Origin: Isoptericola cucumis
GTDB lineage: Bacteria; Actinomycetota; Actinomycetes; Actinomycetales; Cellulomonadaceae
Length of the DNA: 64,000 bases
NCBI RefSeq assembly: GCF_014635665.1
Contig: NZ_BMDG01000005.1
Location: 1 to 64,000, forward strand
Direction: 5' to 3'
Positions 30,830-46,072 of the stretch are shown piece after piece. Made by a program: the position numbers and the translations under genes. Each line of letters opens with the position of its first letter. Positions within the stretch are counted from its first letter, which is position 1. The notes below the pieces were generated by a model. It saw only the letters and a program-made list of their open reading frames with translations, was not told where the DNA came from and did no database searches.

Positions 30830-30905
30830 GGCGCCCACACTACGGCGCGCCGGGACGGGCGAGGACGCACCGGCCCGCCGCCGGGATGTGGTGGAGAATG
30901 TGCCC

Positions 30906-31373: not shown

Positions 31374-31390
31374 CGTGATCGCCTGACGTG
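31365..31390 (+). repeat. 13-bp tandem duplication joining rpiB stop and glycosylase start
   Basis: Two exact copies of atcgcctgacgtg abut at 31365-31377 and 31378-31390. The first holds the rpiB TGA (31371-31373); the last three bases of the second are the GTG start of the glycosylase gene. Confidence 0.97.
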
Positions 31391-32404
31391 CCAGAAGGTC
31401 ACACCGTCCACCGCCTCGCGCGGGCCCTGGACGCGTTGTTCGGCGGGCAGCCGCTGCGGGTGAGCAGCCCGCAGGGGCGGTTCGCCGACGGCGCTGCACT
31501 GCTCGACGGCCACTTCCTGGTCGCGAGCGAGGCGTGGGGTAAGCAGCTGTTCTGCGGCTTCGGCCCGACGCGGACGAGCGCCGCGGCGCCGGCACCGGAG
31601 GAGCTGCGCTGGCTGCGCGTGCACCTGGGGCTGTACGGGGCGTGGACGTTCGCCGGCGACGGCAGCGCCGACGTCGTGCACGCGATCGGCGCGCCCCGCA
31701 AGCGGGTCGGCGAGCGGGAGACGGTCCCCGCCGCGCCGGCCGGGAGCGGGGGCGGGGCCGCGGACCCGGCGGGCGAGGACGGCTGGGCGCCGCCGGCCCC
31801 GCGCGGCGCGGTGCGGGTGCGCCTGCGGGGCGCGCACGCCGTCGCCGACCTCACCGGCCCCACCGCCTGCGAGGTGCTCACCGGCGCGGAGAAGGCAGCC
31901 GTCGAGGCGCGGCTCGGCCCCGACCCGATCCGGCCGGACGGCGGGCGGGGATCCCTGGGCGCGGCGCGCGAGGCGTTCGTCGCGCGCGTGCGGCGCTCCC
32001 GGGTGACGGTCGGGCAGCAGCTCATGGACCAGGCGGTCGTCGCCGGGGTGGGCAACATCTACCGCGCCGAGGCGCTGTTCCGCGCGGGCCTTGACCCGCT
32101 GCGCCCCGGCCGGGAGGTCCCGGCCACGACCCTCGCCGCGATCTGGGACGACCTCGTCGTGCTCATGCGCGACGGCGCCGACCGGGGTGCGATCGTCACG
32201 ACGAGGCCGGAAGACCGGGTGCCCGGCGGGGGCGGCCGCGTCACGCGGCAGAACACCGACGGCGCGCCCGGCGCGGTCCCGGCCGACGACGCGTTCTACG
32301 TTTACCACCGCGACGGGCTGCCGTGCCGGGCGTGCGGCGCGCCCGTGCTCACCAAGGAGCTCGCGGGCCGCAACCTCTTCTGGTGCGGGGTCTGCCAGGC
32401 CTGA
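31388..32404 (+). CDS. Fpg/Nei-family DNA glycosylase/AP lyase
   Basis: This 338-residue base-excision repair enzyme starts with the catalytic N-terminus PEGHTVHR after Met removal, where the proline is the Schiff-base nucleophile and Glu3 assists. The helix-two-turn-helix is VTVGQQLMDQAVVAGVGNIYRAEALF. It ends with a C4 zinc finger: CRACGAPV and FWCGVCQA. The PEGHT start fits actinobacterial Nei2-type proteins. A Gly/Ala/Pro-rich insert near 105-135 is unusual. GTG start, 14 bp after rpiB. Confidence 0.92.
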   Translation: MPEGHTVHRLARALDALFGGQPLRVSSPQGRFADGAALLDGHFLVASEAWGKQLFCGFGPTRTSAAAPAPEELRWLRVHLGLYGAWTFAGDGSADVVHAIGAPRKRVGERETVPAAPAGSGGGAADPAGEDGWAPPAPRGAVRVRLRGAHAVADLTGPTACEVLTGAEKAAVEARLGPDPIRPDGGRGSLGAAREAFVARVRRSRVTVGQQLMDQAVVAGVGNIYRAEALFRAGLDPLRPGREVPATTLAAIWDDLVVLMRDGADRGAIVTTRPEDRVPGGGGRVTRQNTDGAPGAVPADDAFYVYHRDGLPCRACGAPVLTKELAGRNLFWCGVCQA

Positions 32405-32435
32405 CGGCCAGCCGCTCCGCCGTCCGGCGAGCACC

Positions 32436-33743
32436 TCAGAACACCCAGCCGCAGGCCGGCGCGACGGGCCAGCCGAACGCGGCGGCCGCCGCGGCGAGCG
32501 CGCCCGGTGTGCGCTCGACGACGAGCCCGGCGCCCGCGAGGGCGGCGAGCGACGTGCCGCCCAGGTAGGCGGCGCCGACCTCGCGCACGTCGAGCTCGAG
32601 GTCGGGTGCGGCGTCGGTGCGCTCGCAGGCCGCCGGGCCGAACGCGTCGGCGCGCAGGCGCCAGGTGCCGGCGTTGTCGGGCAGCCGGGCGTCCGTGACG
32701 CCGAGCACGACGTCGACGTCGGCCTGGTAGCGCCGTCCCGCGAGCGCGGCGGGCACGTCCACCAGGCGCACCCACACGTTGTCGGCCACGCGGGCGCCGG
32801 CCGCCCGCGGGTCGACGAGCAGGCCGGTGACGGGGTCGTCGGTCGGCACCAGGAACGGCTCGGTGGCGCTCATGAGGTCGAGGTCGACCAGCACGCCCCA
32901 CAGGGCGCGGGCGGCCGCGGCGTCCAGCGCCACGACGTCGCCGGTGTGCACCGTGCCGCGCGGGCCGGTCACCTCCCAGCCGAGCGTGCGCCGGAAGGTC
33001 GCGTACCCGCGGGGCTCGCCGTCGCGCTCGACGACGGCGATCCGCAGCGACTCCCGCCCGGCCGAGCGGAAGGACTTGGGGTCGGACCAGTAGCTCGCCC
33101 ACAGCTCCTCGGTCTCCCGGGTGGCCCAGCCGGGGCGGTTGACGCCCGAGGCGGGTGCGTCGGCGCGCTCGCGCACCTGCCCGGGTGCCCGGTGCAGCCG
33201 CGCGACGAGCTCGCCGTGGCGCTCGCGGTCGGCGTGCTCGAGGCGCACGGTGTGCGCGTCGGCGCCGGGCACGTCGCGCAGCGCGGCGCCCCGCGGGATG
33301 CTCAGTCGCAGGTCGTCGGCGGCCTTGCCGTACCCGAACCGGCCGTAGATGGCGGCCTCCGCGGCGAACAGGGCGGACACCGGCTCGCCGCGCTCGCGGC
33401 AGTGCGCCAGGTGGTCGTCGATCATGGCGGTGAGCAGGCCGCGCCGGCGGTGCTGGGGGTGCACGCCCACCCAGGTCAGCCCGGCGACCGGCAGCTCGGC
33501 GCCCGGGACGGGGAAGCGCGAGAACGGGTACGACGCGCGGAGCGCGGCGAGGGGGCCGCCGGGAGCGGTCTCGACGCCGACGGTGCGCTCCCAGCTGACG
33601 GGCAGGGCCAGGTCGTCGAACTCGTCGACGCCGTGCGGGTCCGGGAACGCCCAGGTGTCGAGGTCGAGCAGGGCGCGGCGGTCGTCGGCGGTGAGCTGCC
33701 GGAAGCGGTAGCCGGCGGGCAGGGCGGCAGGGTGGGAGGTCAC
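32436..33743 (-). CDS. Eis-like GNAT N-acetyltransferase
   Basis: This 435-residue protein has the three-part Eis layout: an N-terminal GNAT domain with the acetyl-CoA loop VHPQHRRRGLLTAMIDDHL near 85-103, a second GNAT-like fold, and a C-terminal sterol-carrier-like domain ending in a carboxylate (GWPVAPACGWVF). Eis proteins acetylate amines, including some aminoglycosides, but the substrate here is unknown. CACGAT lies 6 nt before GTG 33743, suggesting a leaderless transcript. Confidence 0.88.
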   Translation of the reverse strand: MTSHPAALPAGYRFRQLTADDRRALLDLDTWAFPDPHGVDEFDDLALPVSWERTVGVETAPGGPLAALRASYPFSRFPVPGAELPVAGLTWVGVHPQHRRRGLLTAMIDDHLAHCRERGEPVSALFAAEAAIYGRFGYGKAADDLRLSIPRGAALRDVPGADAHTVRLEHADRERHGELVARLHRAPGQVRERADAPASGVNRPGWATRETEELWASYWSDPKSFRSAGRESLRIAVVERDGEPRGYATFRRTLGWEVTGPRGTVHTGDVVALDAAAARALWGVLVDLDLMSATEPFLVPTDDPVTGLLVDPRAAGARVADNVWVRLVDVPAALAGRRYQADVDVVLGVTDARLPDNAGTWRLRADAFGPAACERTDAAPDLELDVREVGAAYLGGTSLAALAGAGLVVERTPGALAAAAAAFGWPVAPACGWVF

Positions 33744-33805
33744 GGCCCGATCGTGGCGCGGCCGGCCACGACGTGCCAGCCCATTTCGGCCAGTAGGGTC
33801 GCCGG

Positions 33806-34186
33806 GTGGACGCCGTCGAGGAGTATGCCGCCGCGGTGCTCGACCTCGCCCGTCGCATCCCGTCCGGGCGGGCCATGACCTACGGGCTGATCGCGGAGAT
33901 CGTCGCCGAGCGGCTCGGCCGGGGCGGCCCGCGGCAGGTCGGGAACGTGATGGCGGGGTCCGGGGACCGGTACGCCCACCTCGTGCCCGAGGGGGCCGCC
34001 GTGGTGGGGCCGGCACAGGACAACCACCCCGTGCCCTGGTGGCGCGTGGTGAACGCCGCCGGGTCGCCGCCGGCGCGCCATCTCACCGTCGCCCTCGACG
34101 CCTTGCGGGCCGAGGGCTGCCCCCTCACCCGAGACGGACGTCGCGTGGACCTGCGCCGCGCCGTCTGGTTCCCCGAGGACGACTAG
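33806..34186 (+). CDS. Alkyltransferase-like protein (MGMT family, no catalytic Cys)
   Basis: This 126-residue ATL protein has the MGMT DNA-binding fold (IPSGRAMTYGLIAEIVAERLG) but reads HPVPWWRVVNAAG where methyltransferases have PCHR, so the alkyl-acceptor Cys is replaced by Trp. ATLs bind O6-alkylguanine and hand it to nucleotide excision repair. TAGGGT lies 6 nt before the GTG start. Confidence 0.9.
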   Translation: MDAVEEYAAAVLDLARRIPSGRAMTYGLIAEIVAERLGRGGPRQVGNVMAGSGDRYAHLVPEGAAVVGPAQDNHPVPWWRVVNAAGSPPARHLTVALDALRAEGCPLTRDGRRVDLRRAVWFPEDD

Positions 34187-34202
34187 CGACCGGTGGTGGC
34201 CC

Positions 34203-35348
34203 TCAGATCTTCTTCGGCGCCACCCGGGCTGCCAGCGACCCGGCGCCCGCCCGCACGCGCGCGCCGACCGGGGTGCCGCCACCGGCGTCACGGCGCGCTG
34301 CCTGCGCCGCCGCGAGGACGGTGAGCATGGACGACGGGTCGCCCTGCAGCAGCATCGTCGTCAGGGCGGTGCCGTCCCACCGGGCGAGGTCGCGCGCGAC
34401 CTTCTCGGCGGGCCCGACCAGCGCGATCTCCTCCACCAGCTCGGTGGGCACGGCCCGCGCGGCGTCCTCCTTGCGCCCGGCGAGGAAGAGCTCCTGGACC
34501 TCGTCCAGCGCCGCCGCGTACCCCAGTCGGTCCAGGGAGGCCTTGTGGAAGTTCGCCTCCTTCGACCCCATCCCGCCCGCGTACAGCGCGATGTGGGGAC
34601 GGATGACGTCGGCGGCAGCCTCGAGGTCGTCGCGCACCACGACCGGCACGGTCGCGAGCACCTCGAACGCCGAGGCGGGTGCGCGCTCGTCCGCACGCTG
34701 CGCGAACCCGGAGGCGAGCAGCTCGCGGTGCTCGGCGTCGGCGCGGGGGGCGTAGAAGCCGGCCATCCAGCCGTCGGCGATCTCGGCGGCGAGCGCGACG
34801 TTCTTCGGCCCCTGCGCCGCCAGGACGATCGGGATGTCGGCGCGACGCGGGTGCACGGTGGGCTTGAGCGCCTTGCCGAGGCCCGTGGCGCCGGGGGCGT
34901 CGGCGGGCAGGGGGAGCCGGAAGAAGTCGCCGTCCGCGGTGACCGGGCGCTCGCGGGCGAAGACCTGGCGCACGACGTCGACGTACTCGCGCGTGCGGGC
35001 CAGCGGCCGCCGGTACGGCTGGCCGTACCAGCCCTCGACGACCTGCGGCCCGGACGCGCCGAGGCCGAGCACGAAGCGGCCGCCGGAGAGGTGGTCGAGC
35101 GTGATCGCCTGCATCGCCGTCGCGGTGGGGGTGCGGGCCGCCATCTGTGCGATGCCGGTGCCGAGGCGCAGCCGGCGGGTGCGCGAGCCCCACCAGGCGA
35201 GCGGCGTGAAGGCGTCGGAGCCGTACGCCTCCGCCGTCCAGACGGAGTCCAGGCCGAGCGCCTCGGCGGCGACCAGGGCGGGCACGATGCCCTTCGGTGG
35301 CTTGCGGGACCAGTAGCCGGTCTGGATGCCGATGCGCAGGGTGCTCAT
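34203..35348 (-). CDS. LLM-class F420-dependent oxidoreductase
   Basis: This 381-residue luciferase-like TIM-barrel protein starts LRIGIQTGYWSRKPPKG. It has LDHLSGGRFVLGLGASGPQVVEGWYG and VALAAEIADGWMAGFYAP, typical of actinobacterial F420-dependent enzymes of the LLM class. GAGGAG precedes the ATG. The substrate cannot be told. It converges on the alkyltransferase-like gene with a 16-bp gap. Confidence 0.87.
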   Translation of the reverse strand: MSTLRIGIQTGYWSRKPPKGIVPALVAAEALGLDSVWTAEAYGSDAFTPLAWWGSRTRRLRLGTGIAQMAARTPTATAMQAITLDHLSGGRFVLGLGASGPQVVEGWYGQPYRRPLARTREYVDVVRQVFARERPVTADGDFFRLPLPADAPGATGLGKALKPTVHPRRADIPIVLAAQGPKNVALAAEIADGWMAGFYAPRADAEHRELLASGFAQRADERAPASAFEVLATVPVVVRDDLEAAADVIRPHIALYAGGMGSKEANFHKASLDRLGYAAALDEVQELFLAGRKEDAARAVPTELVEEIALVGPAEKVARDLARWDGTALTTMLLQGDPSSMLTVLAAAQAARRDAGGGTPVGARVRAGAGSLAARVAPKKI

Positions 35349-35460
35349 GGGGGCGGTGCTCCTCGTCGAGGCGGATGTTCCGGGGTACCCGGGACTCGGC
35401 GTCTCGGGTAACGCGAGTCACACCCTAGCCGAGAGACGAGCCCGGGCTTAGCGTCGGACC

Positions 35461-35865
35461 ATGGCGACCTACGACGACGTGGCGTCCGTCGCGCTCGGGC
35501 TGCCGGACGTGACGGAGGGCACCCGCTACCGGGGCTGGCGCTCCTGGCAGGTGGGCAGGGCCGTGTTCGCCTGGGAACGGCCGTTCAGCAAGGCCGACGT
35601 CCGGCGGTTCGACGACGCGCCGGTTCCGGGCGGTCCGATCCTCGCGGTGGCGACCGAGGACCTCGAGGAGAAGGAGGCGCTGCTCGCCGCGCACGGCTCG
35701 GCGTGCCTCACGATCCCGCACCTCGACGGCTATCCCGCCGTGCTCGTGCGCCTCGACCGGCTGGGCGGTGCGGACGACGCCGAGCTGCGCGAGCTGGTCG
35801 TGGACGCCTGGTTCGCCAAGGCGCCGCCGGCGCTCGCCGAGCGGCACCGCGACCTGCTCGGGTGA
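35461..35865 (+). CDS. MmcQ/YjbR-family protein
   Basis: This 134-residue CyaY-like fold protein has the sequence LPDVTEGTRYRGWRSWQVG, then FAWERPF and the C-terminal DAWFAKAPPALAERH. The family is thought to bind DNA, but its role is unclear. TAGCGT lies 6 nt before the ATG, pointing to a leaderless transcript. Confidence 0.85.
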   Translation: MATYDDVASVALGLPDVTEGTRYRGWRSWQVGRAVFAWERPFSKADVRRFDDAPVPGGPILAVATEDLEEKEALLAAHGSACLTIPHLDGYPAVLVRLDRLGGADDAELRELVVDAWFAKAPPALAERHRDLLG

Positions 35866-35890
35866 GGCCCGCTTCGGGGTCGCGTCGCTG

Positions 35891-36918
35891 TCAGCCGGTC
35901 GCGCGGGCCCGGTCCGCGAGGGTGTTGAGCAGCCCCGCCGCGGACGCGGCGTCGTCCACGGTGACCACGAGCGAGCGGCCGCCGGTCCGCTCGACCAGGA
36001 GCGACTCGCCCCGCCGGAGCACGACGCCGACCCGGCCGCCCGGGCCCACCCGCCAGCCCCAGCCGCCGAACTCCGCGAGCGGGCTCACGTCGGTCACCGA
36101 CGCGACGACGACCTCGTCGGCGGGCACGTGCGTGCCGGGCCAGCCGAGGACTGAGCGCACCGTCAGGCCCGTCGCGTCGACGCGCACCGTGAAGGCGAAC
36201 ATCGCCGCGAAGAGCCCGGCCAGCAGCGCGGGCACGACGAGCATCGCCCACGTCTCCAGCACGACGGCGAGCACCGTGGTGATCAGGATCGCGACGGCCG
36301 CGACGGCCAGGCCCGGACCGCCGGCCGCCCGCCGGAACCATGCCGCTCGCTCGCCGTCGTGCAGCACCGCCCGCGCGGCGCCCGCGGCGACCGGCGCGTC
36401 GGAGGGGAGCCTCCGGTCGCCGGGGACCAGCGCCGCGGCGAGGCAGGCGGGGACGAGGGGGAGCAGCAACGACAGCGCCAGGGCCCAGCCGGCGTCGGTG
36501 GCCTCGGAGGCGTCGGCGAGCCCGCGCTGCGGGGCCAGGGAGGTGAGCAGGACCGCCGCGGCGAACGCGCCGGACCACATGCAGCCGCCGGCGGCCAGGC
36601 GCCGGGTCGAGGCCGCGGCGCCCCACGCCCACCCGATGGCGGCGAAGACGGCGCACAGCCCCACGGCGAGGAGGATGCCGACGAGCAGGAAGGAACCCAC
36701 CGACGAGAAGCCGTCGGGCGCGCCGGCGCCGCTCCAGTGCGAGGCGATCTCGCCGGGCAGCTCGTCGAGCCACGACCAGCGACGAGCGCCCCGGCCAGCG
36801 CGAGCAGGAGCCCCGCGGCCGACGACCAGAGCATCGCCCGGCGCGCTCCGGGCCGCCAGGCGGCCGGGCCCGCGCCCGAGCCGCCCGAGGTTCGGCCGGT
36901 CGGGGGAGTCGTGGTCAT
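35891..36918 (-). pseudogene. DUF1648-type multispanning membrane protein, frameshifted
   Basis: The N-terminal frame starts at ATG 36918 (SD GGAGG) and gives MTTTPPTGRTSGG followed by a membrane helix (LLLALAGALV). Near 36775-36790 the frame must shift to continue as SWLDELPGEIASHW and GAPDGFSSVGSFLLVGILL, the DUF1648 pattern LPxxIxxHWxxxGxxDGF. The second frame then runs without interruption to 35891, with about six helices and a C-terminal PH-like domain. One missing base explains the break. Either a real pseudogene, a programmed shift, or a sequencing error. Confidence 0.7.
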
Positions 36919-37005
36919 CGGGTCATCGCCTCCTTGACGAGGGTGGTGGTCTCCGGGGACACCTGTGCCGCCCGCGCGGCGGCGGCCGGCGCGTCGAGGG
37001 GCCCC

Positions 37006-37047
37006 GTGACGGCGGACCGGCGTGACGACGGACCGGCGTGACGACGG
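37006..37047. repeat. 16-bp tandem repeat, about 2.6 copies
   Basis: gtgacggcggaccggc (37006-37021) is followed by gtgacgacggaccggc (37022-37037) and a third partial copy (gtgacgacgg). It lies downstream of cysE and upstream of the DUF1648 gene. On the plus strand each unit has TGA. Confidence 0.9.
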
Positions 37048-37073
37048 CCCGCGACCCCGAGGGGTCGCGGGCC
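37046..37073 (-). terminator. Hairpin terminator after cysE
   Basis: A perfect 13-bp stem (37046-37058 with 37061-37073) with a 2-nt loop lies 28 bp after the cysE stop on the minus strand. Confidence 0.75.
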
Positions 37074-37100
37074 GCGAGCGGGCCGTCGGTCGTGGAACGG

Positions 37101-37772
37101 TCAGATCATGTACTCGGGGAGACCGGCGTCCTCGACGCGCTGGCCGTGGTCGGGCCGGTGCCCCGGCGCGCGGGCCTGGGCCGGCACGCCGACCGCGACC
37201 ATGCCCGCGGGCACCTCCCGCACGACCACGGCGTTGGCCCCGATCTGCGCGTCGTCACCGATCTGCAGCGGTCCCAGCACCTTGGCGCCCGCCCCCACCA
37301 TGACGCGGTCGCCGAGCGTCGGGTGCCGCTTGCCGCGGGTCATCGAGCGCCCGCCGAGCGTGGAGCCGTGGAACAGCACGCAGTCGTCGCCGACCACGGC
37401 CGTCTGCCCGATGACCACGCCCATGCCGTGGTCGATGAACAGCCGGCGCCCGATGCGCGCGCCCGGGTGGATCTCGATCCCGGTGAGCCAGCGGGCGACC
37501 TGCGACACGAGCCTCGCAGGCAGTCGCAGACCCGGCCGGTGCCACATCCGGTGCGTGATCCGGTGCACCCACACCGCGTGCACGCCCGGGTAGCCGAGCG
37601 CGACCTCGAACCGGGACCGTGCCGCCGGGTCGTGGGCGTGGGCCGCCTCGAGGTCCTCCAGGAGGATCTCGACGAGGTGCCCCAATCCTGGCCGGTGGCC
37701 CGCGGGCATGGGGTGGTCGGCGTCGTCGGGCACGGTGCGTCGCGACGCGGTCGCGGCGAGGGGGGCGGTCAC
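37101..37772 (-). CDS. cysE: Serine O-acetyltransferase
   Basis: CysE makes O-acetylserine for cysteine synthesis. This 223-residue protein is the shorter EpsC-type: N-terminal helical part, then a left-handed beta-helix of hexapeptide repeats (LFIDHGMGVVIGQTAVVGDD, FHGSTLGGRSMTRGKRHPTLGD) with the catalytic His in IDHGMG. It ends in Ile, as SATs that dock into CysK do (PEYMI). GTG 37772 is 2 nt after the cysK stop, so coupling is likely; an internal ATG near 37708 is an alternative start. Confidence 0.93.
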   Translation of the reverse strand: MTAPLAATASRRTVPDDADHPMPAGHRPGLGHLVEILLEDLEAAHAHDPAARSRFEVALGYPGVHAVWVHRITHRMWHRPGLRLPARLVSQVARWLTGIEIHPGARIGRRLFIDHGMGVVIGQTAVVGDDCVLFHGSTLGGRSMTRGKRHPTLGDRVMVGAGAKVLGPLQIGDDAQIGANAVVVREVPAGMVAVGVPAQARAPGHRPDHGQRVEDAGLPEYMI

Positions 37773-37773
37773 G

Positions 37774-38709
<936 letters not shown>

Positions 38710-38927
38710 GTTGATCGTGTCCTTCTCGTCTGGCGTGGACCGGCCGTCGGCCGGGGTGGACGTGCGCCTACGCACGTCACGATGACCTGGGGAGGGCGAC
38801 GTCGCCAGCCGGGGTCCGGCCGCTCGGGTGCGGGAGACGGTCCGGGCTGGTGCGCGTCGAGGGTGCTGAGCGTCGCGCGGTCGCCGCGGCCCGTCGTGGT
38901 CGACGGGTCAGGCGTGACGCGGACGCT
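38710..38927 (-). promoter_or_regulatory. Candidate attenuator region between the cysteine leader and cysK
   Basis: Reading leftward from the leader stop: a 7-bp hairpin with a 4-nt loop (38890-38896 with 38901-38907); a longer alternative pairing of GAGCGTC at the leader stop (38922-38928) with 38868-38874 that encloses it; a 12-bp palindrome (38795-38806); an 8-bp stem with a 4-nt loop (38759-38766 with 38771-38778); and a 6-bp stem (38740-38754) shortly before the cysK ribosome site. The leader-stop strand would be covered by a ribosome at or near the Cys codons, so alternative folding is plausible. The mechanism is inferred. Confidence 0.5.
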
Positions 38928-38993
38928 CTACAGACAGGTGCAGCAGCAGGGGACGCAGGGACGGGCGGTGACGGTGGCGATCGCGTGGCGCAT
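38928..38993 (-). CDS. Polycysteine leader peptide of the cysK-cysE operon, 21 aa
   Basis: The minus strand has ATG at 38993, 21 sense codons and TAG at 38930-38928. The last nine residues are CVPCCCTCL, so five Cys codons (all TGC or TGT) fall in eight positions, including three in a row. GGAAGGG lies about 9 nt before the ATG. Upstream position, size and composition match the cysteine-responsive short ORFs described for mycobacterial sulfur genes, where ribosome stalling at Cys codons controls the operon downstream. Here that role is inferred, but chance occurrence directly upstream of cysK is unlikely. Confidence 0.75.
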   Translation of the reverse strand: MRHAIATVTARPCVPCCCTCL

Positions 38994-39129
38994 CGGCTGT
39001 GTCCCTTCCGTCCGGGCGGCCGTGGCCGCGAGCGTCGTCACCGGGCCCGCGACGGCGCGGGCGTGACGTGGCGCCGAGCGTATCGCCCGCCGCGGTCGGC
39101 GACAACGGCCGGCCTGGATCGTCTCAGCG

Positions 39130-39200
39130 AGCGGGCGACGGGAATCGAACCCGCGTAGCCAGTTTGGAAGACTGGGGCTCTACCATTGAGCTACGCCCGC
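39130..39200 (-). tRNA. tRNA-Gly (anticodon TCC)
   Basis: Acceptor arms GCGGGCG/CGCCCGC; anticodon stem CCAGT/ACTGG with loop CTTCCAA, anticodon TCC; T-loop GGTTCGATTCC. Discriminator U at 39130; CCA is not encoded. The length is 71 nt. Confidence 0.96.
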
Positions 39201-39380
39201 ACGTTGCTCGAAGCACGACGCGGCAGCTGCCCGCCGTCCTTCCGAACGCGGGCCTCACCCTAGCAAAGGCGCAGGTGTCGTCCGGCCGGGCGCGGTCCCG
39301 GCCACCGTTGACGGCGGCGTCCGCGGCGACGTGGTGGCGCACTACACTGACCTGGGCCTGCACCGGTAGGGGCGGGTCCT

Positions 39381-39457
39381 CGGGGTGTGGCGCAGCTTGG
39401 TAGCGCATCTGCTTTGGGAGCAGAGGGTCGCAGGTTCGAATCCTGTCACCCCGACCA
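39381..39457 (+). tRNA. tRNA-Pro (anticodon TGG), attachment site of the integrated element
   Basis: Acceptor arms CGGGGTG/CACCCCG with discriminator A at 39454 and CCA at 39455-39457. The anticodon loop TTTGGGA gives TGG. TACACT at 39343-39348 is a plausible -10. From 39412 on, the gene's 3' part is an att core repeated at 49206-49249. The encoded CCA comes from the element side: the chromosomal flank at attR reads GAG in place of the CA that completes CCA. Confidence 0.97.
39412..39455 (+). repeat. attL core of the integrative element
   Basis: A 44-bp sequence from the anticodon loop to just past the tRNA-Pro 3' end, identical to 49206-49249. The integrase gene lies beside it, reading toward it. 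Confidence 0.95.
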
Positions 39458-39458
39458 C

Positions 39459-39496
39459 CGCCCACCTGCACGAACACGTTTCGGTGCAGGTGGGCG
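39459..39496. terminator. Hairpin between tRNA-Pro and the integrase gene
   Basis: A 16-bp stem with one bulged G (39459-39474 with 39480-39496) and a short loop lies just inside attL. It could end tRNA-Pro transcripts and leftward int transcripts. It belongs to the element, since it is absent at attR. Confidence 0.65.
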
Positions 39497-39521
39497 AACC
39501 CGTCGGAACGGCCGCTGTGGT

Positions 39522-39538
39522 TCCAACTGAGGTTCTAC
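39522..39538 (+). repeat. Candidate integrase arm-type site, left
   Basis: The 17-mer tccaactgaggttctac recurs with one mismatch at 49107-49123, in the same orientation. Each copy lies inside the element 60-100 bp from an att core. It overlaps the int stop codon. Confidence 0.5.
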
Positions 39539-40719
39539 GCGGCGTCGTCATCGTCTGCCCCATCGGCTTTGAGCACCGGGAAGACGAGGTCCATCACCGC
39601 CGCTCCGGCTTCGAGGACAGGCCGCAGCTCGTGGCGATAGACCAGCTCGGTGACGGCGGTCCCCGAGTGCCCCATGAGCCGCGAGATCTCCTCGATGGGC
39701 AGACCACGCTCCGACAGGATCGAGACGAACGAGTGACGCAGATCACGCGGCGTCCATTCCTCCGGGACGATCCCGGGCACCAGCCGCAGCGCTGACCGGA
39801 AGGATCGGCGGACGTTGTGCGAGTCCTGCTCGGTCCCCACCAGGGACGGGAACACCAGGTCGTTCTCCTTCCAGGCATCGCCGGCCCTCGCCCTGATCGC
39901 GGCCTGCTTCGCCCGGTGCTCGATGAGCACGGCCGCGACATAGCCCGAGATTGCCAGTGTGCGGCGCGACTTCTGCGTCTTGGTGTCGCCCCCCTCACGC
40001 ACCGAGCGCCAGACGTTGATGTGCGGCGGCACGCCCTTGGGCGGGTCGAGGTCGACGGCGTCCCATCGCAATGCGCGGACTTCCTCGGGCCGAGCCCCGG
40101 CGAGCAGCGAAACCACGATGTAGGCGTGCGCCGGATGGTCCCGCGTCTTGTCGAGCAGATCGGAAGCCTGTTGAAACGTCAGCGACCTCGACCTGCGACC
40201 CGGGCGTCCCTTGGGAGCCGGGCTGAGGTCGACGACGTTTCGCTCCGCCAGGCCCCGCTTCATCGCCCGGTCGATCGACCGTTTCAGTACCGACCGAACC
40301 TGCTTGAGCGTCGACGTCGACAGCTTGGGCGCGAGGCTCACGAGCCAACGATCGATCTCGTCCGGGCGAAGATCGCGGACCCGACGTCCGCCGAGATGTG
40401 GCTTGATGTGCAGCAGGTAGTGAATCTCGTTCCCCTGCTGAGTCCGAGCGGAGACGCTGGACCGAGCGAACGCCAACCAGTCCTCGACGACGGCCGACAC
40501 GGTGACGCGCCGAGCGTCCGGCAAGATGCCGGCCTCGTACTCGCGCACACGGGCACGAAGGGCCTTCAGCGCGGCCGACTCGGTCTTGCCAGATCCGGTC
40601 TTGCGGATCGGCTTCCCGCGACCGTCGTAGCCGACCGTCTGTCGAGCCATGTACCGCTGCCGCTGCTCGTCCCAGTAGACCGTGCCCTCTCCGCGGGAGC
40701 GTCGCTGCTTCTCGCTCAT
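39535..40719 (-). CDS. Tyrosine recombinase (element integrase)
   Basis: This 394-residue site-specific integrase catalyses att recombination. An Arm-type DNA-binding N-terminus (GTVYWDEQRQRYMARQTVGY) precedes a SAM-like core-binding domain (about 75-160) and the catalytic domain: Arg210 in GARPEEVRALRW, a Lys near 247-250, Arg328 in TPRDLRHSF, His351 in LMGHSG, and nucleophile Tyr361 in VYRHE. The first His of the HxLR box is Arg325, a common variant. The start overlaps the xis stop (ATGA), and the gene reads toward attL. Confidence 0.95.
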   Translation of the reverse strand: MSEKQRRSRGEGTVYWDEQRQRYMARQTVGYDGRGKPIRKTGSGKTESAALKALRARVREYEAGILPDARRVTVSAVVEDWLAFARSSVSARTQQGNEIHYLLHIKPHLGGRRVRDLRPDEIDRWLVSLAPKLSTSTLKQVRSVLKRSIDRAMKRGLAERNVVDLSPAPKGRPGRRSRSLTFQQASDLLDKTRDHPAHAYIVVSLLAGARPEEVRALRWDAVDLDPPKGVPPHINVWRSVREGGDTKTQKSRRTLAISGYVAAVLIEHRAKQAAIRARAGDAWKENDLVFPSLVGTEQDSHNVRRSFRSALRLVPGIVPEEWTPRDLRHSFVSILSERGLPIEEISRLMGHSGTAVTELVYRHELRPVLEAGAAVMDLVFPVLKADGADDDDAA

Positions 40720-40925
40720 GCTGCCCCCAGCCCTTCGACGTACTCACGCACGGCAGCAACGGGAACGAGCCTCCGTGCGCCGACCTTGACGGTGCGGAGC
40801 CGACCAGAACGGATCAGCTCGTAGACGGTCCTACGTGACAGCCGCAGTGCGACGGCCGCCTCTTCGACCCGGTACAGCTCCGGGACGATCTCGCCGACGA
40901 AGGCGAGCGTTGCCTTGCTGGTCAT
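40716..40925 (-). CDS. Excisionase-family helix-turn-helix protein (Xis)
   Basis: This 69-residue winged-helix DNA-binding protein is of the MerR/excisionase type: YRVEEAAVALRLSRRTVYELIRSGRLRTVKVGARRLVP. It probably bends DNA at att to favour excision over integration. It overlaps int by 4 bp, so the two are made together. A 30-bp gap separates it from the rep gene upstream. Confidence 0.9.
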   Translation of the reverse strand: MTSKATLAFVGEIVPELYRVEEAAVALRLSRRTVYELIRSGRLRTVKVGARRLVPVAAVREYVEGLGAA

Positions 40926-40955
40926 GCCTTCCCCCTCGGGTCGTGGTTTGGCCGG

Positions 40956-42491
40956 CTATCGCGCCGGGCGATGGGCTCGCTGGTCTGCTCGCCACTTGGC
41001 GTACTCGCGGGCGCGGGATGCGGCGGCATCGGCCAGCGCTTTGTCGCCCGCGTGGGGCCAGCCGGTGCCCTCGTAGGTCCAGGAGCCGACGACGAGGGTG
41101 GTCTCCGCGTCGTCGTCGGCCATGAGCCGCGCTTCGAGGTCGCGCGTGTCGAGCGGCTGCCCGTTGCGCCGGGCGTCGGCGGTGAGGCGTTGGAAGCGGC
41201 GGCGGGCGCGGCGCAGCGCGCCGAGCGTGACCGAGTAGCGGCGAGACTTGGTGGAGAAGTGCCCGCGGAAGCCGAGCATCGGGGCCCAGTGGCCGAGCAG
41301 CGCGTACGGGCTGGCCTGACAGTCCCCGCACAGCGCCGGATGCCGTTCCGCGGCCCGCTCGCCACAGCCGAAGTCGCAGCGGGCCAGCGCCCGGGAGGCC
41401 AGATCGCGGCAGGCCGAGGTGAGCGCGGTCAGGTGCCTACGCGGGCGGGCGGGGTCGAAGCCGGCGGCCTTGGTGGAGTACTTCGCCAGGTAGGCGGCGA
41501 CCTGCTCGGCCGTCACCGCGCCGTCCGTGACGCTGGTGTCGCGGACGACGCGCACGTCCGTCTGTGCCCCGAACCGCAGCACCCGGGCGACGTCGTCGGC
41601 ATCGACCGGCTCGGCCGTGTAGTGGACGGCGGCCGCAGCATCGCGGACGACGTCGGCCAGCACGGCGGCCGGGACCGGTGACGGTGTCCCGGGGCCGTCC
41701 GGGCCGTCGAGGCGGATCAGGGCGTGGAAGTGGACCAGGCCGCGGGCCTGGAACTCGGCAACCTTCGCGTACTCGAGGCGCAGGTGGTCCCGCAGCGCGG
41801 AGGCGGTGACGTCGAGCGCGGCGGCGAGGTGGCGGCGCAGGGTGATGGTGAAGCGCCGCCACAGCTCGGGCGCGAACCACTGCCACACCGCCGCCGAGTC
41901 GGGGTCGTAGCAGTCCGGGCACACCGGCGCACCGACCTCGACGTCGGAGGGGTCGTGGTGTGCCCAGCAGGTCAGGCGTCGCCCGTGCTCGCAGACGGTC
42001 GTCTTGGCGCGGGGACGGCAGGGCTGCTTGCCGTCGCGCACCGAGTGCACGGGCCCGAACGAGGGCGCGGTGAGCGTGACGAACAGCAGCGGATTCGTCG
42101 CGACGGTGTCGGGGACACCCTTGCCGCCGCGGGTTCCCGTGGCGATCAACTCGAACGTGTCGCGGGCGTAGATGCGTGAGCAGGCCGGGCAGACGTCCTG
42201 GCGCCGGTTGCCGCACGGCTTATAGAGCATCCCGAGGGGCTGGTCGGCGGAACGGAACGTCGCGACGATTTCCCCGGTGCGGGCGTCGACGGTGTCGGAG
42301 CGTCCGACGAGTCGCACGGGGTGGGCGCAGTTGCCGACCCGGGCCAGGGTCTCGGCCAGGGCGGGCATCGACCTGTCGGCCAGGCGTCCGAGGATGCCCG
42401 CGGCTTGGGTGCCGGTGAGGTCGACCAGGTCGAGGGGGACGTCGGGGGAGTGCCCCCAGAAGCCCTCAGTCGTCGCCGTGGCCGTGTCCAT
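40956..42491 (-). CDS. RepSA-type rolling-circle replication initiator
   Basis: This 511-residue protein starts autonomous replication of the excised element by nicking at its double-strand origin. It has FVTLTAPSF at about 137-145, the metal-binding HUH motif VHFHALIRLDG (HFH 254-256) and the likely nicking Tyr in YLAKYSTK at 334-341. An N-terminal Cys cluster (CGNRRQDVCPACSRIYARD) and CEHGRRLTCWAHH plus CPDC resemble zinc-binding sites of the RepSA family. The start overlaps the upstream tra stop (TGATG). Confidence 0.93.
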   Translation of the reverse strand: MDTATATTEGFWGHSPDVPLDLVDLTGTQAAGILGRLADRSMPALAETLARVGNCAHPVRLVGRSDTVDARTGEIVATFRSADQPLGMLYKPCGNRRQDVCPACSRIYARDTFELIATGTRGGKGVPDTVATNPLLFVTLTAPSFGPVHSVRDGKQPCRPRAKTTVCEHGRRLTCWAHHDPSDVEVGAPVCPDCYDPDSAAVWQWFAPELWRRFTITLRRHLAAALDVTASALRDHLRLEYAKVAEFQARGLVHFHALIRLDGPDGPGTPSPVPAAVLADVVRDAAAAVHYTAEPVDADDVARVLRFGAQTDVRVVRDTSVTDGAVTAEQVAAYLAKYSTKAAGFDPARPRRHLTALTSACRDLASRALARCDFGCGERAAERHPALCGDCQASPYALLGHWAPMLGFRGHFSTKSRRYSVTLGALRRARRRFQRLTADARRNGQPLDTRDLEARLMADDDAETTLVVGSWTYEGTGWPHAGDKALADAAASRAREYAKWRADQRAHRPAR

Positions 42492-43993
42492 CAGGCGACC
42501 TCGGCACCCGGCTCGGTGGACGCGGCGGTGGTCGTCTTACGAGGGCTGCGCTTTCGCGGCGTGCGCGGACGGGGACGCGGAGCCCGTCCGACGGTCTCGC
42601 CCGGAGCCTCAGCTTGGAGGGCGTCGCCCGCAGGCGAGCCGGTGTCGGATTCCGTGGGCACCGGCGGGGCGGGCGGGGCGGGGTAGGTGGCGGCGACCAT
42701 GCGGATGAAGTCGTCGGCCCAGTAGTCGGCGCGGACGCGTTCGATGTGGCCGTCGTCGCCGACGAGATAGCCGGCGCCGGGCATGGTGGGCGTGATGTGG
42801 TGGGCGGGCGCGAGGGCTGCCATCCCGTCGCCGAGGACCATGCGTGTCTCGGCGGCGGAGGCGAGGCGCAGGGCGATGGTCTGCGTGAACAGGTCCCGCA
42901 TGCCCACGGTCTCCTTGCGGGGGTCCTGCACGAAGGCGACGACCATGACCCCGAACGCGCGGCCTTGGGTCAGGATCAGTTTCAACAGGTTGGCGGCCTC
43001 GTTGACGACGTCCTTGGAGGCGTACGCGGTCAGGACGGCGAGCTCGTCGATCATCAGCACGTGCACCGGGTCGCCCGGCGTGGGGGTGAAAGTGCGCGAC
43101 AGGCCACGCATGACGCTCTGCCGGTCGACGATGACGCGGTGCAGGTCGCGCAGCAGTCTGACGGCGTCGGCTTCGTTCATGGCGACGTGGGAGAACATCG
43201 GCGACCCGACCGCGACCTCGACGCCGCCCTTGAGGTCGACGCCCCATAGGCGTGCCATGCCGGCGTGGGCGGCGGGGGCGAGGTTCCCGGCGATGCCCCA
43301 GAAGATTGATCCCTTACCGGAGCCGGAGCGGCCCACGACGAGGGTGTGTCGGGCCGCGAGGTTCAGTCGCCAGGGTGACCCGTCAGCGGTGCGCCCGAGG
43401 GTGACCGCGCGCGTCTCGATGGCGTCGGGGATGGTGGGGAGGGTCGGGACGTGCAGCAGTTCGCGCATGGTCAGCGACAGTTCGAGCCACCCGGCCCCGA
43501 GCCTGCGGGTTTCGACTGCTTCGGCGCCCATCGAGGTCGCGATGGCCTCGGCAGCGTTCGTGAGGTCGTCGACGGTGTGCCCGACCCGAGCCCGGACCTG
43601 GAACGTGAGCGTGTTCCCGTCCGCGCGGACCCGTCGCAGGCGAGGGATGACGCGGGCGTCGTCGGTCGTGAGGGTCAGGCCGCAGCGGTCCGCGATCTTC
43701 GGCCACTGCTTGCGCAGATGACGGCGCCACCCGCGACGCCGGATCGGCCCGCCCAGCACGGTCTCGTAGGTCATCGGGTGGACCGCGGACCAGAGCGCGC
43801 GCAGGAGCGAGAACGCGGGGACGCACCAGATCACCGCGTGGCCGGCCACCTCGAAGTCGAGGATGAGAAGGACGTTGCCCAGCACGGCGCAGGCCAGCAG
43901 CAGCCGCCAGGACCGCAGCGTCCACCAGACCAGCTGCCACACCGCCCCGGCAACCGTCCGGGTGACGGCCCACGCCGTGCTGAGCGTGTCCAT
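42491..43993 (-). CDS. FtsK/SpoIIIE-type DNA translocase (TraSA/TraB-like)
   Basis: This 500-residue protein carries double-stranded DNA between mycelial or cell compartments in AICE transfer. Two N-terminal membrane helices (about 14-45 and 50-72) precede the motor: Walker A VVGRSGSGKGS near 219-229, GVDLKGGVEVA, Walker B VLMIDELAVL at 312-321, and QGRAFGVMVVAFVQDPRKETVG. The C-terminus is basic (PRPRTPRKRSPRKTTTA), possibly for DNA contact. A 48-residue upstream extension is rejected because ATG 43993 overlaps the preceding stop as TGATG. Confidence 0.93.
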   Translation of the reverse strand: MDTLSTAWAVTRTVAGAVWQLVWWTLRSWRLLLACAVLGNVLLILDFEVAGHAVIWCVPAFSLLRALWSAVHPMTYETVLGGPIRRRGWRRHLRKQWPKIADRCGLTLTTDDARVIPRLRRVRADGNTLTFQVRARVGHTVDDLTNAAEAIATSMGAEAVETRRLGAGWLELSLTMRELLHVPTLPTIPDAIETRAVTLGRTADGSPWRLNLAARHTLVVGRSGSGKGSIFWGIAGNLAPAAHAGMARLWGVDLKGGVEVAVGSPMFSHVAMNEADAVRLLRDLHRVIVDRQSVMRGLSRTFTPTPGDPVHVLMIDELAVLTAYASKDVVNEAANLLKLILTQGRAFGVMVVAFVQDPRKETVGMRDLFTQTIALRLASAAETRMVLGDGMAALAPAHHITPTMPGAGYLVGDDGHIERVRADYWADDFIRMVAATYPAPPAPPVPTESDTGSPAGDALQAEAPGETVGRAPRPRPRTPRKRSPRKTTTAASTEPGAEVA

Positions 43994-44361
43994 CACGCCG
44001 CCTCCACCCCGTCGTCGTGCCAGTCGTCGAGGTCGTGCCACCACGGCTCGGCCGGCGGGAACGCCCGCACCGGGCGGACCAGCTCGCCCGCGTAGTGCAC
44101 CGCGAACCGCGGCTCGACCCCGGGCATCGAGGACCACACCGTGAACCCGCGGGCATGCTCCTCGGGCGGGTAGTCGGTGACCTCACCGAGGGACAGCAGC
44201 CGGGCCAGGTGCTCGGCGTCGGCCTGGCAGTCGACGTGCACGCTCACGCACGTGCGTCCCAGTGCGAGGTAGGCCACCCGGCCGTCGACCCACTCGATCA
44301 GGTCCCCGGCGATCTGTAGCAGTTCCGCAGGCGCGAGCCCGCCGCTGACGGGCGCGGACAT
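43993..44361 (-). CDS. Hypothetical AICE operon protein, 122 aa
   Basis: Small acidic protein starting MSAPVSGGLAPAELLQIAGD. Segments VSVHVDCQADAEHLARLLSLGEV and EPRFAVHYAGELVRP suggest an alpha/beta fold. No known domain. It overlaps its neighbours on both sides by one base (TGATG), so it is tightly coupled to the translocase and the preceding protein. Similar small genes precede tra in other AICEs; a role in transfer is inferred from context. Confidence 0.75.
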   Translation of the reverse strand: MSAPVSGGLAPAELLQIAGDLIEWVDGRVAYLALGRTCVSVHVDCQADAEHLARLLSLGEVTDYPPEEHARGFTVWSSMPGVEPRFAVHYAGELVRPVRAFPPAEPWWHDLDDWHDDGVEAA

Positions 44362-44807
44362 CAGGCCGCCGCCTTGGACTCGGGCTTGGACTCCGGCGGC
44401 TTCGCGTCCGTCCGGCCCTGCCCGGGAGCGACCAGGTCGCTGGCACGGAAGGACCAAGCGATGCGGGGACGGTTGCCGTTGTCGTCCACGTAGGGCAGTG
44501 CCGTCAGGCCGACGAACTCCACAGGCGTCCACGGAATCGGGGACTTGTTCTCCGGGGGCACCGGCTGGTACTTCGCCGCGATCTTCACCGTGACACCGAT
44601 GTCCCGCCGCCCGGCCTCCTCGTCACCGTCGATCACGACGCACTGCCACAACGGCAGGTCGGTGTCCTTGTCCCGCTGCTGCGGTCGCTGGCCCTCCGGC
44701 CCCGCGGGGGCGTTGAAATCCGCCACTGGTGTGACTTCACCGTGGAGGAAAGCGCCGTTGGGGAAGACCGTCGAGTGCTCGACGGGGAATCGCTTCTGCA
44801 TCGCCAT
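44361..44807 (-). CDS. Hypothetical AICE protein, 148 aa, first gene of the rep-tra operon
   Basis: The protein starts MAMQKRFPVEHSTVFPNG and contains LPLWQCVVIDGDEEAGRRDI, AKYQPVPPENKSPIPWTPVEF and a Lys/Ser/Ala-rich tail. The predicted beta-rich core might form an OB-like fold, but I cannot assign a function. AAGGAG lies 8 nt before the ATG. It is the first gene after the divergent regulatory region holding two 17-bp operator-like repeats. Confidence 0.75.
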   Translation of the reverse strand: MAMQKRFPVEHSTVFPNGAFLHGEVTPVADFNAPAGPEGQRPQQRDKDTDLPLWQCVVIDGDEEAGRRDIGVTVKIAAKYQPVPPENKSPIPWTPVEFVGLTALPYVDDNGNRPRIAWSFRASDLVAPGQGRTDAKPPESKPESKAAA

Positions 44808-44830
44808 CGTGCCCACTCCTTCGAGTTTCC

Positions 44831-44847
44831 TACAGACACACTCTGTA
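44831..44847. promoter_or_regulatory. Operator-like inverted repeat 1
   Basis: tacagacacactctgta: perfect 6-bp arms (TACAGA/TCTGTA) with a 5-bp spacer, 24 bp before the leftward operon start. Shares TACAGAC...TGTA and 17-bp length with the second site. Confidence 0.55.
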
Positions 44848-44865
44848 TCTGCCACTCTTGCAACG

Positions 44866-44882
44866 TACAGACTGTCTATGTA
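44866..44882. promoter_or_regulatory. Operator-like inverted repeat 2
   Basis: tacagactgtctatgta: outer TACA/TGTA arms around the inner AGACTGTCT palindrome. Its centre is 35 bp from the first site's centre, and it lies 48 bp before the regulator start. TTGCAA sits between the sites. Confidence 0.5.
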
Positions 44883-44929
44883 CGAGGCAAGTGCTGCCGA
44901 ACATCACGGCGTGATCCAGACTGGGCAAG

Positions 44930-46072
44930 GTGGAGCCGACCACGTCAGAGGACTCCGGGGGACTCGGAGGGGACTCGCTCGACATCGGGGCGATGTGCGC
45001 AGCGCGCGGCTGGAGCCGTTCGCGCCTCATCTCGGCCATGCGCCGGGCCGCAGCTACCGACGGCGCCAAGTTGCCCGGGGACGACAGCCTGAAACGGATG
45101 ATCCGCCTGTGGATCAACGGCGAGCGTCGGCCAAGCGACGAGTACGCCGCGTTGCTCGCGCGGACGTTCGGCGTCGTGCAGGTCCATACCGGGGGAGATT
45201 CCACAGACGGATTCCTGGACCTGCTCGCCCGGGCAGAATCGTCAGTGGACGCGGAGCTCGTCGACCGGTTCGAGGCGCAGACCCAGAGTCTCCGCGTCCT
45301 GGATCGTCGCCTGGGCGCCCGGAGGCTTCTCGGACAGGCGGAGGCGCACGCACAGAACGTGGCGGACCTCGTTCAGTGGGCAGAGTTCGGAGCCGTCCGA
45401 GAGGGGATGGCTGCAACCGGAGCCGAGGCCGCCGCACTTGCAGGGTGGCTGGCACTCGACCTCGGCAAAGCCTCCGATTCGTGGCGCCTGCACAACCTGG
45501 CCCGGGCACTGGCCGTTGAGGCCGGTGACACCGCCGTCGTCGCCCACGTCACTGCTCAGCAGGCATACGCGTTGCTCGATGCCGGCAGGACGTCGAGGGC
45601 GGTGAAGCAGTTCGAAGCGGCGCGCCAGATGGCCGGCACGAGGGTTCCGGGCGTGGTTCGATCCTGGCTGTTTGCGGCGGAGGCCGAGGCGCACGCGGCA
45701 GCCGGCGACACATCGACGACGCTCGACCTTCTCGACCGGGCCACAGCAGCCCTTGATGACGACGACGTCCCGTTCGTCGTTCTGGACTCCGCACATCTGG
45801 CCCGGTGGCGCGGGAGTTGCCTCGCCCGGCTCGGCCACCCGGAGGCGATACAGGTCCTCAACGACGCCCTGAACCGGTTGGACCCCGATTTCAACCGGGC
45901 CGCCGCCGGACTCCACGCCGACCTGGCAACGGCCTACACGGTGGCCAGGCAACCCGACGCAGCACGCCACCACGCGCAAGACGCGGCGAAGTTGTCTGCC
46001 GCGACCGGATCGAACCGCCAGCGCTCCCGCATCCTGGCGCTACTCGGCGCCGAACGCGAGCAGGTGCAGTAG
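44930..46072 (+). CDS. HTH-TPR transcriptional regulator of the element
   Basis: The 380-residue protein has an N-terminal XRE-like domain (SRLISAMRRAAATDGAKLPGDD, then RMIRLWINGERRPSDEYAALLARTFGV) and a long C-terminal array of TPR-like helices (about 150-375). This resembles actinobacterial XRE-TPR regulators and, loosely, RRNPP peptide sensors. It is divergent from the rep-tra operon, so it is the best candidate for its repressor or activator. The start is GTG 44930 with CAGACT 7 nt upstream (leaderless type); a later start is possible. Its 3' end overlaps the Nudix gene by 33 bp on the other strand. Confidence 0.8.
   Translation: MEPTTSEDSGGLGGDSLDIGAMCAARGWSRSRLISAMRRAAATDGAKLPGDDSLKRMIRLWINGERRPSDEYAALLARTFGVVQVHTGGDSTDGFLDLLARAESSVDAELVDRFEAQTQSLRVLDRRLGARRLLGQAEAHAQNVADLVQWAEFGAVREGMAATGAEAAALAGWLALDLGKASDSWRLHNLARALAVEAGDTAVVAHVTAQQAYALLDAGRTSRAVKQFEAARQMAGTRVPGVVRSWLFAAEAEAHAAAGDTSTTLDLLDRATAALDDDDVPFVVLDSAHLARWRGSCLARLGHPEAIQVLNDALNRLDPDFNRAAAGLHADLATAYTVARQPDAARHHAQDAAKLSAATGSNRQRSRILALLGAEREQVQ

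Follow-up and report, generated by a model that had tools for sequence, protein, structure and literature searches.

A conserved cysteine-codon leader with a stop-anchored hairpin upstream of cysK-cysE: a candidate ribosome-mediated attenuator in Isoptericola and related actinomycetes

Introduction

The place where a ribosome finishes a short leader ORF can decide what becomes of the transcript ahead of it: in the tnaC system of E. coli, the ribosome at the end of the leader ORF decides Rho termination downstream. In Mycobacterium smegmatis, cysteine-responsive attenuation is reportedly brought about by polycysteine, leaderless short ORFs (work of Canestrari et al., 2020). Cys leader peptides ahead of cysteine genes were predicted in the Actinobacteria by Seliverstov in 2005, and Rho was proposed there, weakly, for the mycobacterial cys leaders (PMC1262725); leaders of this kind at actinobacterial cysteine genes also figure in PMC4633059. 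In the Rhodobacterales, the uORFC-8-2 motif upstream of cysS combines a Cys uORF with a terminator (PMC8632094).

The locus considered here lies in a 64,000-nt stretch of DNA from Isoptericola cucumis (hereafter the window), where a short ORF ending in Cys codons and a hairpin anchored on its stop codon, termed P1, precede cysK-cysE. It resembles the type predicted in 2005, having Cys codons near the stop of a short ORF before a cysteine operon and no conserved intrinsic terminator. It differs from the Mycobacterium leaders, in which no conserved terminator hairpin was found (PMC1262725), in its conserved stop-anchored hairpin, in the TGT at codon -2, in the TAG stop, and in belonging to other lineages. 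The uORFC-8-2 motif likewise joins a uORF with conserved Cys codons to RNA helices; its tandem Cys codons lie within the first stem (PMC8632094) and a U-run intrinsic terminator follows, whereas here there is no terminator and the gene is cysK.

Other comparisons are looser. With the M. smegmatis short ORFs, as reported, the locus shares Cys codons in an upstream ORF, proposed ribosome stalling and the control of sulfur genes; unlike them, it has a predicted 5' UTR and a Shine-Dalgarno sequence, a Cys run that is dispensable, and only one motif-bearing locus in the genome. The sequestration of the ribosome site by the Cys region, on which the mycobacterial model reportedly turns, is not seen in the window's genus, and finds some support in another genus, g8 (Cellulosimicrobium). 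Like tnaC, the leader is proposed to let a ribosome at its end govern Rho termination downstream; unlike tnaC, its logic would be biosynthetic rather than catabolic, and it has a conserved hairpin. The initial annotation of this DNA knew of no description of the arrangement in this lineage. No description of a stop-anchored hairpin at cysK in this order was found among titles and abstracts of the openly licensed literature, and by that measure the hairpin appears new for the order; the kind of regulator is already known, Cys leaders having been predicted in Actinobacteria (PMC1262725).

The cysK-cysE locus and its leader

The features of the locus are collected in Table 1. The GTG start of cysE/epsC, which was picked by position, lies 1 nt past the cysK stop. 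The 21-codon leader ORF noticed in the initial annotation, ending CVPCCCTCL with five Cys in eight positions, is indeed present on the minus strand at 38993-38928, and its Shine-Dalgarno-like GGAAGGG (39009-39003) was found as described, as was a TAG whose end lies 218 nt before the cysK ATG (38709). The conserved Cys codon of the leader tail is the TGT at position -2 (38936-38934).

Table 1. Coordinates of features at the cysK-cysE locus (positions in the window)
Feature	Position	Strand	Details
cysK, cysteine synthase A	37774..38709	-	TIGR01139, 448.5 bits (cut-off 350.95)
cysE/epsC, serine O-acetyltransferase	37101..37772	-	NF041874, 231.5 bits (cut-off 150); TIGR01172, 231.0 bits (cut-off 210.65)
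cysK Shine-Dalgarno region	38720..38727	-	GAGAAGGA
Candidate Rho-loading region	38728..38867	-	C-rich, G-poor spacer
P1 3' arm	38868..38879	-	CGCGCGACGCTC, one bulged base
Inner helices of the hairpin	38881..38915	-	
P1 5' arm	38918..38928	-	GAGCGTCCGCG, starts on the G of the stop codon
Conserved core	38924..38936	-	TGTC-NN-TAG-AGCG: last Cys codon, stop codon and start of P1
Cys-rich leader tail	38931..38957	-	TGC GTC CCC TGC TGC TGC ACC TGT CTG
Leader peptide ORF	38928..38993	-	21 codons, MRHAIATVTARPCVPCCCTCL, stop TAG
Shine-Dalgarno-like sequence of the leader ORF	39003..39009	-	GGAAGGG
Predicted promoter	39077..39105	-	-35 TTGTCG (39105-39100), 17-nt spacer, -10 TACGCT (39082-39077)

The predicted leader promoter does not appear in a scan with an E. 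coli-type consensus; TTGTC...TA.GCTCG stands out as a consensus block in the genus alignment (at least 80% of 18 loci). Because this predicted promoter is placed about 77 nt upstream of the leader ORF, the leader mRNA most likely has a 5' UTR of about that length, counted from a start site given by prediction, and hence would not be leaderless. Upstream of the promoter is a tRNA-Gly gene (39129-39200), and this tRNA region occupies the place of an element found in other loci of the genus: in L014, L017 and L022, for example, a degenerate inverted repeat, TCATCGA...TCGAT..GTGAG, stands just upstream of the -35 and is possibly a regulator site. Farther upstream, positions 39381-42491 hold a tRNA-Pro(TGG) gene followed by genes for a tyrosine recombinase, a small protein of the HTH_17 type and a replication initiator of the RepSA (pSAM2) type. 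The group has the look of an integrative element of actinomycetes inserted at that tRNA gene, and it adjoins the tRNA-Gly gene and the cysK leader.

Loci compared

Regions upstream of cysK were collected from three sources: 18 genomes of the genus, additional genomes within its GTDB family (195 of 200 gave a match) and 80 named loci of GTDB 220. The 132 family loci, which include the genus set, were chosen from among the matches listed. Two of these (L193 and L194) were dropped when their cysK start was not found, leaving 130 analysed loci from 21 of 25 genera (all except g5, g13, g18 and g22). One more, L149, was set aside in the counts of codon -2, of Shine-Dalgarno and start frame, and of own versus swapped pairing, all of which refer to 129 loci. 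At each locus the leader ORF was defined by Cys content, the candidate richest in Cys over its last 12 codons being chosen; this selection biases the Cys counts and leaves codon choice, stop codon and downstream sequence unbiased. Codon and stop usage of the window come from 29 roughly called genes, and the shuffle controls described below leave the relatedness among loci in place.

Conservation of the leader and its nucleotide core

The comparison across the family that the initial annotation had proposed recovers a short ORF ending Cys-X-stop, 89 to 293 nt before cysK, in 129 of the 130 analysed loci and in 21 genera (among the matches listed). Codon -2 of the chosen ORFs encodes Cys in every one of these 129, again among the matches listed, as TGT in 127 and TGC in 2, compared with a ratio of 8 TGT to 94 TGC in the window's genes, and the codon that follows always begins with C. 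The stop codon is TAG in 113 of the 130 family loci vs 6 of the 29 window genes. A Shine-Dalgarno sequence with an ATG or GTG start 10-48 codons before the stop was found in the Cys frame at 112 of 129 loci; the corresponding numbers for the two remaining frames are 0 and 5. Of the 17 loci lacking one in the Cys frame, nine belong to genus g7 and three to g15, whose leaders may use other starts.

Since all but one of the family loci carry the leader, codon -2 always encodes Cys, and the core is unique in the genome, a chance ORF was rejected: by these comparisons, the leader is not a product of chance. Nor is it a read-through fusion to cysK, as the distance from stop to ATG varies in frame as well as in length over the range given above. 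The sole exception, L149, has CGG in place of the TAG about 206 nt before cysK. Its leader would continue to a later TGA, and both P1 arm sequences are retained.

The initial annotation had treated polycysteine as the key feature, whereas the family points to the TGT at codon -2 together with TGTCNNTAGAGCG. The last 12 leader codons hold two Cys in 37 loci, three in 34, four in 40, five in 15 and six in 3, and in two loci of other families (L250 and L252) the tails as listed retain the last Cys only. Loss of the Cys run from close relatives, which had been named as a result that would speak against the idea, was found in part: two members of the window's own genus, L006 and L017, have two Cys in the last 12 codons, and the last Cys stays. 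Because the number of Cys codons varies while the TGT at -2 persists, the run is not the conserved feature; judged by nucleotide comparison, what is conserved is the TGTC-NN-TAG-AGCG core with one Cys codon. Neither the P1 loop nor the spacer offers TGTC a clear conserved partner; small excesses only were seen there (for example, GACAG within 30 nt after P1 in 8 of 105 loci vs 2.7 expected), and none of the tests made yielded an explanation for the near-invariance of TGTC.

A hairpin anchored on the stop codon

By sequence comparison, P1 is a conserved hairpin anchored on the stop codon, with strong compensatory change. Its lowest seven pairs (38928-38922 with 38874-38868) had been noted in the initial annotation as an alternative pairing; all seven hold, but as the base of the principal hairpin rather than as an alternative to it, and a separate 7-bp hairpin reported alongside seems to be the tip of P1. 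At the 112 motif-bearing loci, which were not selected for P1, the stem reaches at least 7 bp in 102, compared with 9% of shuffles of the downstream sequence, and the mean anchored stem is 8.6 bp vs 4.6 bp in shuffles.

Covariation was assessed in an alignment (A1) of 67 of the 122 available loci from this and other families, with no more than four per genus from the 105 family loci where P1 had been detected, together with 17 others. In it 91.1% of P1 cells are paired, a figure that leans towards P1 because the alignment was built mostly from loci in which the hairpin had been detected. Cells changed on both sides number 102; shuffles average 42, with 0 of 500 reaching the observed count, and sliding the partner gives no more than 29. 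Almost no variation is seen in the first five pairs (GAGCG/CGCTC), and arm pairs such as GAGCGCTGGC/GCCAGCGCTC, GAGCGTTGAC/GTCAACGCTC and GAGCGGTGGCC/GGCCATCGCTC exemplify the covariation, which is seen with arms 11 to about 77 nt apart across loci.

The window belongs to a subtype (alignment A2, 36 loci) in which P1 extends past a one-base bulge, reaching 11 pairs in all, and carries two more conserved helices above it; paired cells amount to 97.7% for P1, 96.5% for helix 2 and 82.8% for helix 3. In the window the inner helices are CGCC/GGCG (38914-38911 with 38885-38882) and GACCC/GGGCC (38909-38905 with 38892-38888), the latter with an A-C mismatch at a position that is unpaired in 23 of the 36 loci. 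The 87-nt hairpin element has a predicted folding energy of -45 kcal/mol (z -3.7, 0 of 200 shuffles as good); over its full 304 nt, the leader folds unremarkably (z -1.6, equalled by 6 of 100 shuffles). Many other genera have just the P1 base of 9-11 bp, with loops mostly of 20-60 nt. The stem is shorter than 6 bp at 7 of the 112 motif-bearing loci, and the 16 loci of g8, together with L163, keep the leader and lack the P1 sequence, so the hairpin is not indispensable.

The spacer between P1 and cysK

No terminator-like site was found in 38600-39300, and the interval from leader stop to cysK has no T-rich stretch, with at most four T per 8-mer in 128 of 130 loci. An intrinsic terminator was rejected on both counts, and classical attenuation of the trp/his type does not apply, there being neither a U-tract nor a mutually exclusive terminator and antiterminator. 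Since no terminator-like site follows, an output of the Rho type fits better than intrinsic termination.

The composition of the spacer is compatible with Rho loading, without amounting to proof. In the window (38867-38724) it contains 45% C and 31% G, a skew at the 97.5th percentile of same-length segments of the 64 kb and the second highest C-over-G skew among 35 roughly called upstream segments. Over the family, the spacer, measured from some 60 nt past the stop up to the ribosome site, has 50% C and 27% G (129 loci), compared with 37.5% C and 35% G upstream of the leader and 33% C and 26% G before cysK in 44 other named loci; its skew exceeds that of the upstream control in 127 of 128 loci. 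One low-GC exception, L167 of genus g16, has no C excess (24% C, 22% G).

An antiterminator partner for the 3' arm of P1 is unsupported, because GAGCG is depleted downstream, being found in 3 of 105 spacers vs 23.7 expected. The depletion of such 5'-arm words (AGCGC occurs 5 times downstream vs 24.6 expected) is not specific, since GCGAG (6 vs 16.7) and CGAGC (16 vs 30.7) are likewise scarce. CGCTC is in excess (51 vs 36.9 expected), partly through the P1 arms themselves, and could compete for the place of the 3' arm.

Uniqueness and taxonomic range

The pattern TGTCNNTAGRGCG occurs once in the 4.46-Mb genome, at this leader, so a regulon of such leaders in this genome is unsupported; no Cys-rich short ORF was seen in the stretches inspected near either of the two PF01507 genes or near L002, the second CysK-like gene. 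In 21 relatives the same pattern is found once in 13, two or three times in seven and not at all in one (g8), and the nine extra matches, among those listed, look chance-like by eye. A longer pattern matches 78 of 396 genomes of the order. A covariance model matches 72 of the 396, with exactly one match each, including 31 of the 35 genomes of the window's own family (f1) and others in families f3, f9, f12 and f13. Two of the four misses within the family (G025 and G058) do have P1 (at L141 and L183), so the filters of the covariance search lose some true loci.

Loci from the order scan were inspected in two batches, with cysK downstream in 6 of 9 and 8 of 12; those 14 carry a P1 of 6 to 11 bp, and four loci of the second batch are not upstream of cysK. 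Some of the remaining matches of that scan are cysK loci already included in the family comparison. TG[TC]C-NN-TAG-N-GCG lies within 420 nt of cysK at 28 of the 80 named GTDB 220 loci, which include Isoptericola, Promicromonospora, Cellulomonas, Actinotalea, Demequina and Georgenia and none of the listed Arthrobacter or Agromyces loci. Across the class, a narrower pattern that misses the window's own subtype (0 in G000) gave one match in 394 genomes, 40 of them of the same order. The Rfam 15 covariance models gave no match within the leader or hairpin when run on positions 30000-46000 of the window, which led us to reject a known RNA family, and against the regions of 17 relatives they returned only tRNAs above the gathering score.

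Proposed mechanism and alternatives

Taken together, these features are probably those of a cis-acting, ribosome-mediated attenuator of cysK-cysE that senses cysteine supply, with Rho as the most plausible output. RNA polymerase would start at the predicted site about 77 nt before the leader ORF, and a ribosome would translate the short leader to its Cys-X-stop end. When Cys-tRNA is ample the ribosome would finish and leave, allowing P1 to form from the stop codon onward, and the ribosome-free, C-rich RNA behind would make it likelier that the transcript is lost before cysK is reached, with Rho as the most plausible agent. When Cys-tRNA is scarce the ribosome would dwell on the leader Cys codons. 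A ribosome covers roughly 13 nt downstream of the codon in its A site; on the TGT at -2, its 3' edge would lie over GAGCG, the first five bases of P1, so that the hairpin would be blocked and cysK-cysE would stay on. P1 would thus report whether the last Cys codon had been decoded, which would account for the near-invariance of exactly the TGT at -2 and GAGCG.

Stalling attenuation by cysteine supply was already the logic of the initial annotation. What endures of it is a translated-looking, conserved Cys leader before cysteine genes, with a hairpin that could be blocked by a ribosome standing on the final codons; its mycobacterial component, sequestration of the ribosome site, is unsupported in this genus. 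The leader ORF and its frame, the TGT, P1 with its compensatory changes, the C-rich spacer, the lack of a U-tract and the cysK-cysE context are what sequence analysis supports, and from these we infer that the leader is translated in vivo and responds to cysteine, which way the switch works, and Rho as its output. Some points tell against this attenuator. Stalling at an earlier Cys codon would not prevent P1 from forming, a poor fit with the 73 of 129 leaders in which the first Cys is found 8-12 codons ahead of the stop. As to the Rho step, it is not obvious how a stalled ribosome would keep Rho away from the spacer, and L167 is without a C excess.

If it does work in this way, the leader would be a compact, single-copy cysteine sensor before the two final steps of the cysteine pathway in several families of Actinobacteria, absent from Rfam and outside the mycobacterial model. 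It would allow a stringent test of how one codon beside the stop, by fixing where a single ribosome stands, governs a hairpin and, for high-GC bacteria, of whether attenuators of this sort are completed by Rho. A wider and distinctly tentative proposal is that of a separate attenuator class of one order, in which a single UGU Cys codon at position -2 from a UAG stop, within the fixed UGUC-NN-UAG-AGCG, is read out by a stop-anchored hairpin, and in which the readout has changed in evolution: a hairpin in most genera examined, pairing of the Cys codons with the cysK ribosome site in the Cellulosimicrobium type. UGUC as such would then be recognised by the ribosome or by a trans factor, and the difference between lineages in using P1 or ribosome-site pairing would be a natural experiment in attenuator evolution.

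Translational attenuation of the mycobacterial type, in which the Cys region of the leader pairs with the cysK ribosome site and a stalled ribosome frees it, is an unlikely account of the family as a whole, and as a general mechanism such sequestration is unsupported. Pairing of a leader with its own ribosome site is no stronger than with swapped partners taken from other genera, 48% of the swaps being as strong over 129 loci and 62% in the window's genus. Masking the leader has little effect in that genus, predicted accessibility of the ribosome site moving from 0.54 to 0.58. With masking up to the last Cys codon, accessibility rises by more than 0.1 at 32 of 130 loci and falls by more than 0.1 at 6, which would favour such a mechanism at some loci; some rise is expected in any case because masking only removes partners. 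The best case for it is g8, whose 16 loci lack P1 and end their leaders with TGA instead of TAG. There, the 16-locus consensus fold pairs leader TCTCCTGTTG with CGACAGAAGAGG at the cysK ribosome site, 16% of swaps are as strong as the leader's own pairing, and predicted accessibility goes from 0.36 to 0.52 when the leader is masked. Weaker hints come from g24 and g6 (two loci each), where the own pairing also beats most swaps. In three short-spacer loci of g21 (L202, L212 and L215), GACAGG at the ribosome site faces CTGTC.

Two further stems of the initial annotation bear on the same region. The 12-bp palindrome and the 8-bp stem near the cysK ribosome site seem to be stems that are present in the window leader, perhaps with their order swapped, namely GACGTGCG/CGCACGTC, of 8 bp, and CCGGCC/GGCCGG, of 6 bp and hence 12 paired bases. 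Neither is conserved in the genus, and they were rejected as functional parts. Over the family, hairpins near the ribosome site show a weak excess (4.95 vs 4.17 pairs), clearer in g8 and g17.

It is also improbable that P1, when not covered by a stalled ribosome, acts by being cut, for example by RNase III, or by pausing RNA polymerase, so that transcript stability or pausing would be the output. The long hairpin of the window's subtype, with its three stacked helices and no terminator-like sequence, would suit such a role; the 9-11 bp base and loops of the many other genera would not.

There is little to recommend a TnaC-like arrest at Cys-X-stop, in which the ribosome would sense cysteine or a related thiol itself instead of uncharged tRNA. 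Only the Cys at -2 is invariant, as such an arrest would have it, and the listed tails of L250 and L252 have no other. However, residue -1 may be any that is encoded by CNN (mostly Arg or Leu, also Pro, Gln and His), the peptide upstream of Cys-X-stop is not conserved between genera, and the constraint falls on nucleotides (TGTC) that a peptide arrest would not need. It is scarcely credible that the conservation reflects an operator or promoter acting as DNA, with an ORF there only incidentally, for despite the strong nucleotide-level conservation of TGTCNNTAGAGCG, the P1 arms covary at widely differing separations, most leader starts have a Shine-Dalgarno sequence (112 of 129 loci), and in the window's genus a distinct promoter is conserved upstream.

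Other promoter-like elements

Promoter-like sequences were seen in two other genera. Seven loci of g21 (L195, L196, L199, L200, L206, L211 and L216) carry GGAACCTTTGCGC...GTT 147-198 nt before the leader stop, possibly the promoter of the leader transcript. In g9, 14 of 16 loci (L141-L148, L150-L153, L155 and L156, of which L143 is from Actinotalea) have GGAAT/GGAAC-N18-GTT between leader and cysK, 65-139 nt before cysK. This element resembles promoters of the SigR/SigH type, and transcription from it would, if the resemblance holds, bypass the attenuator under thiol stress.
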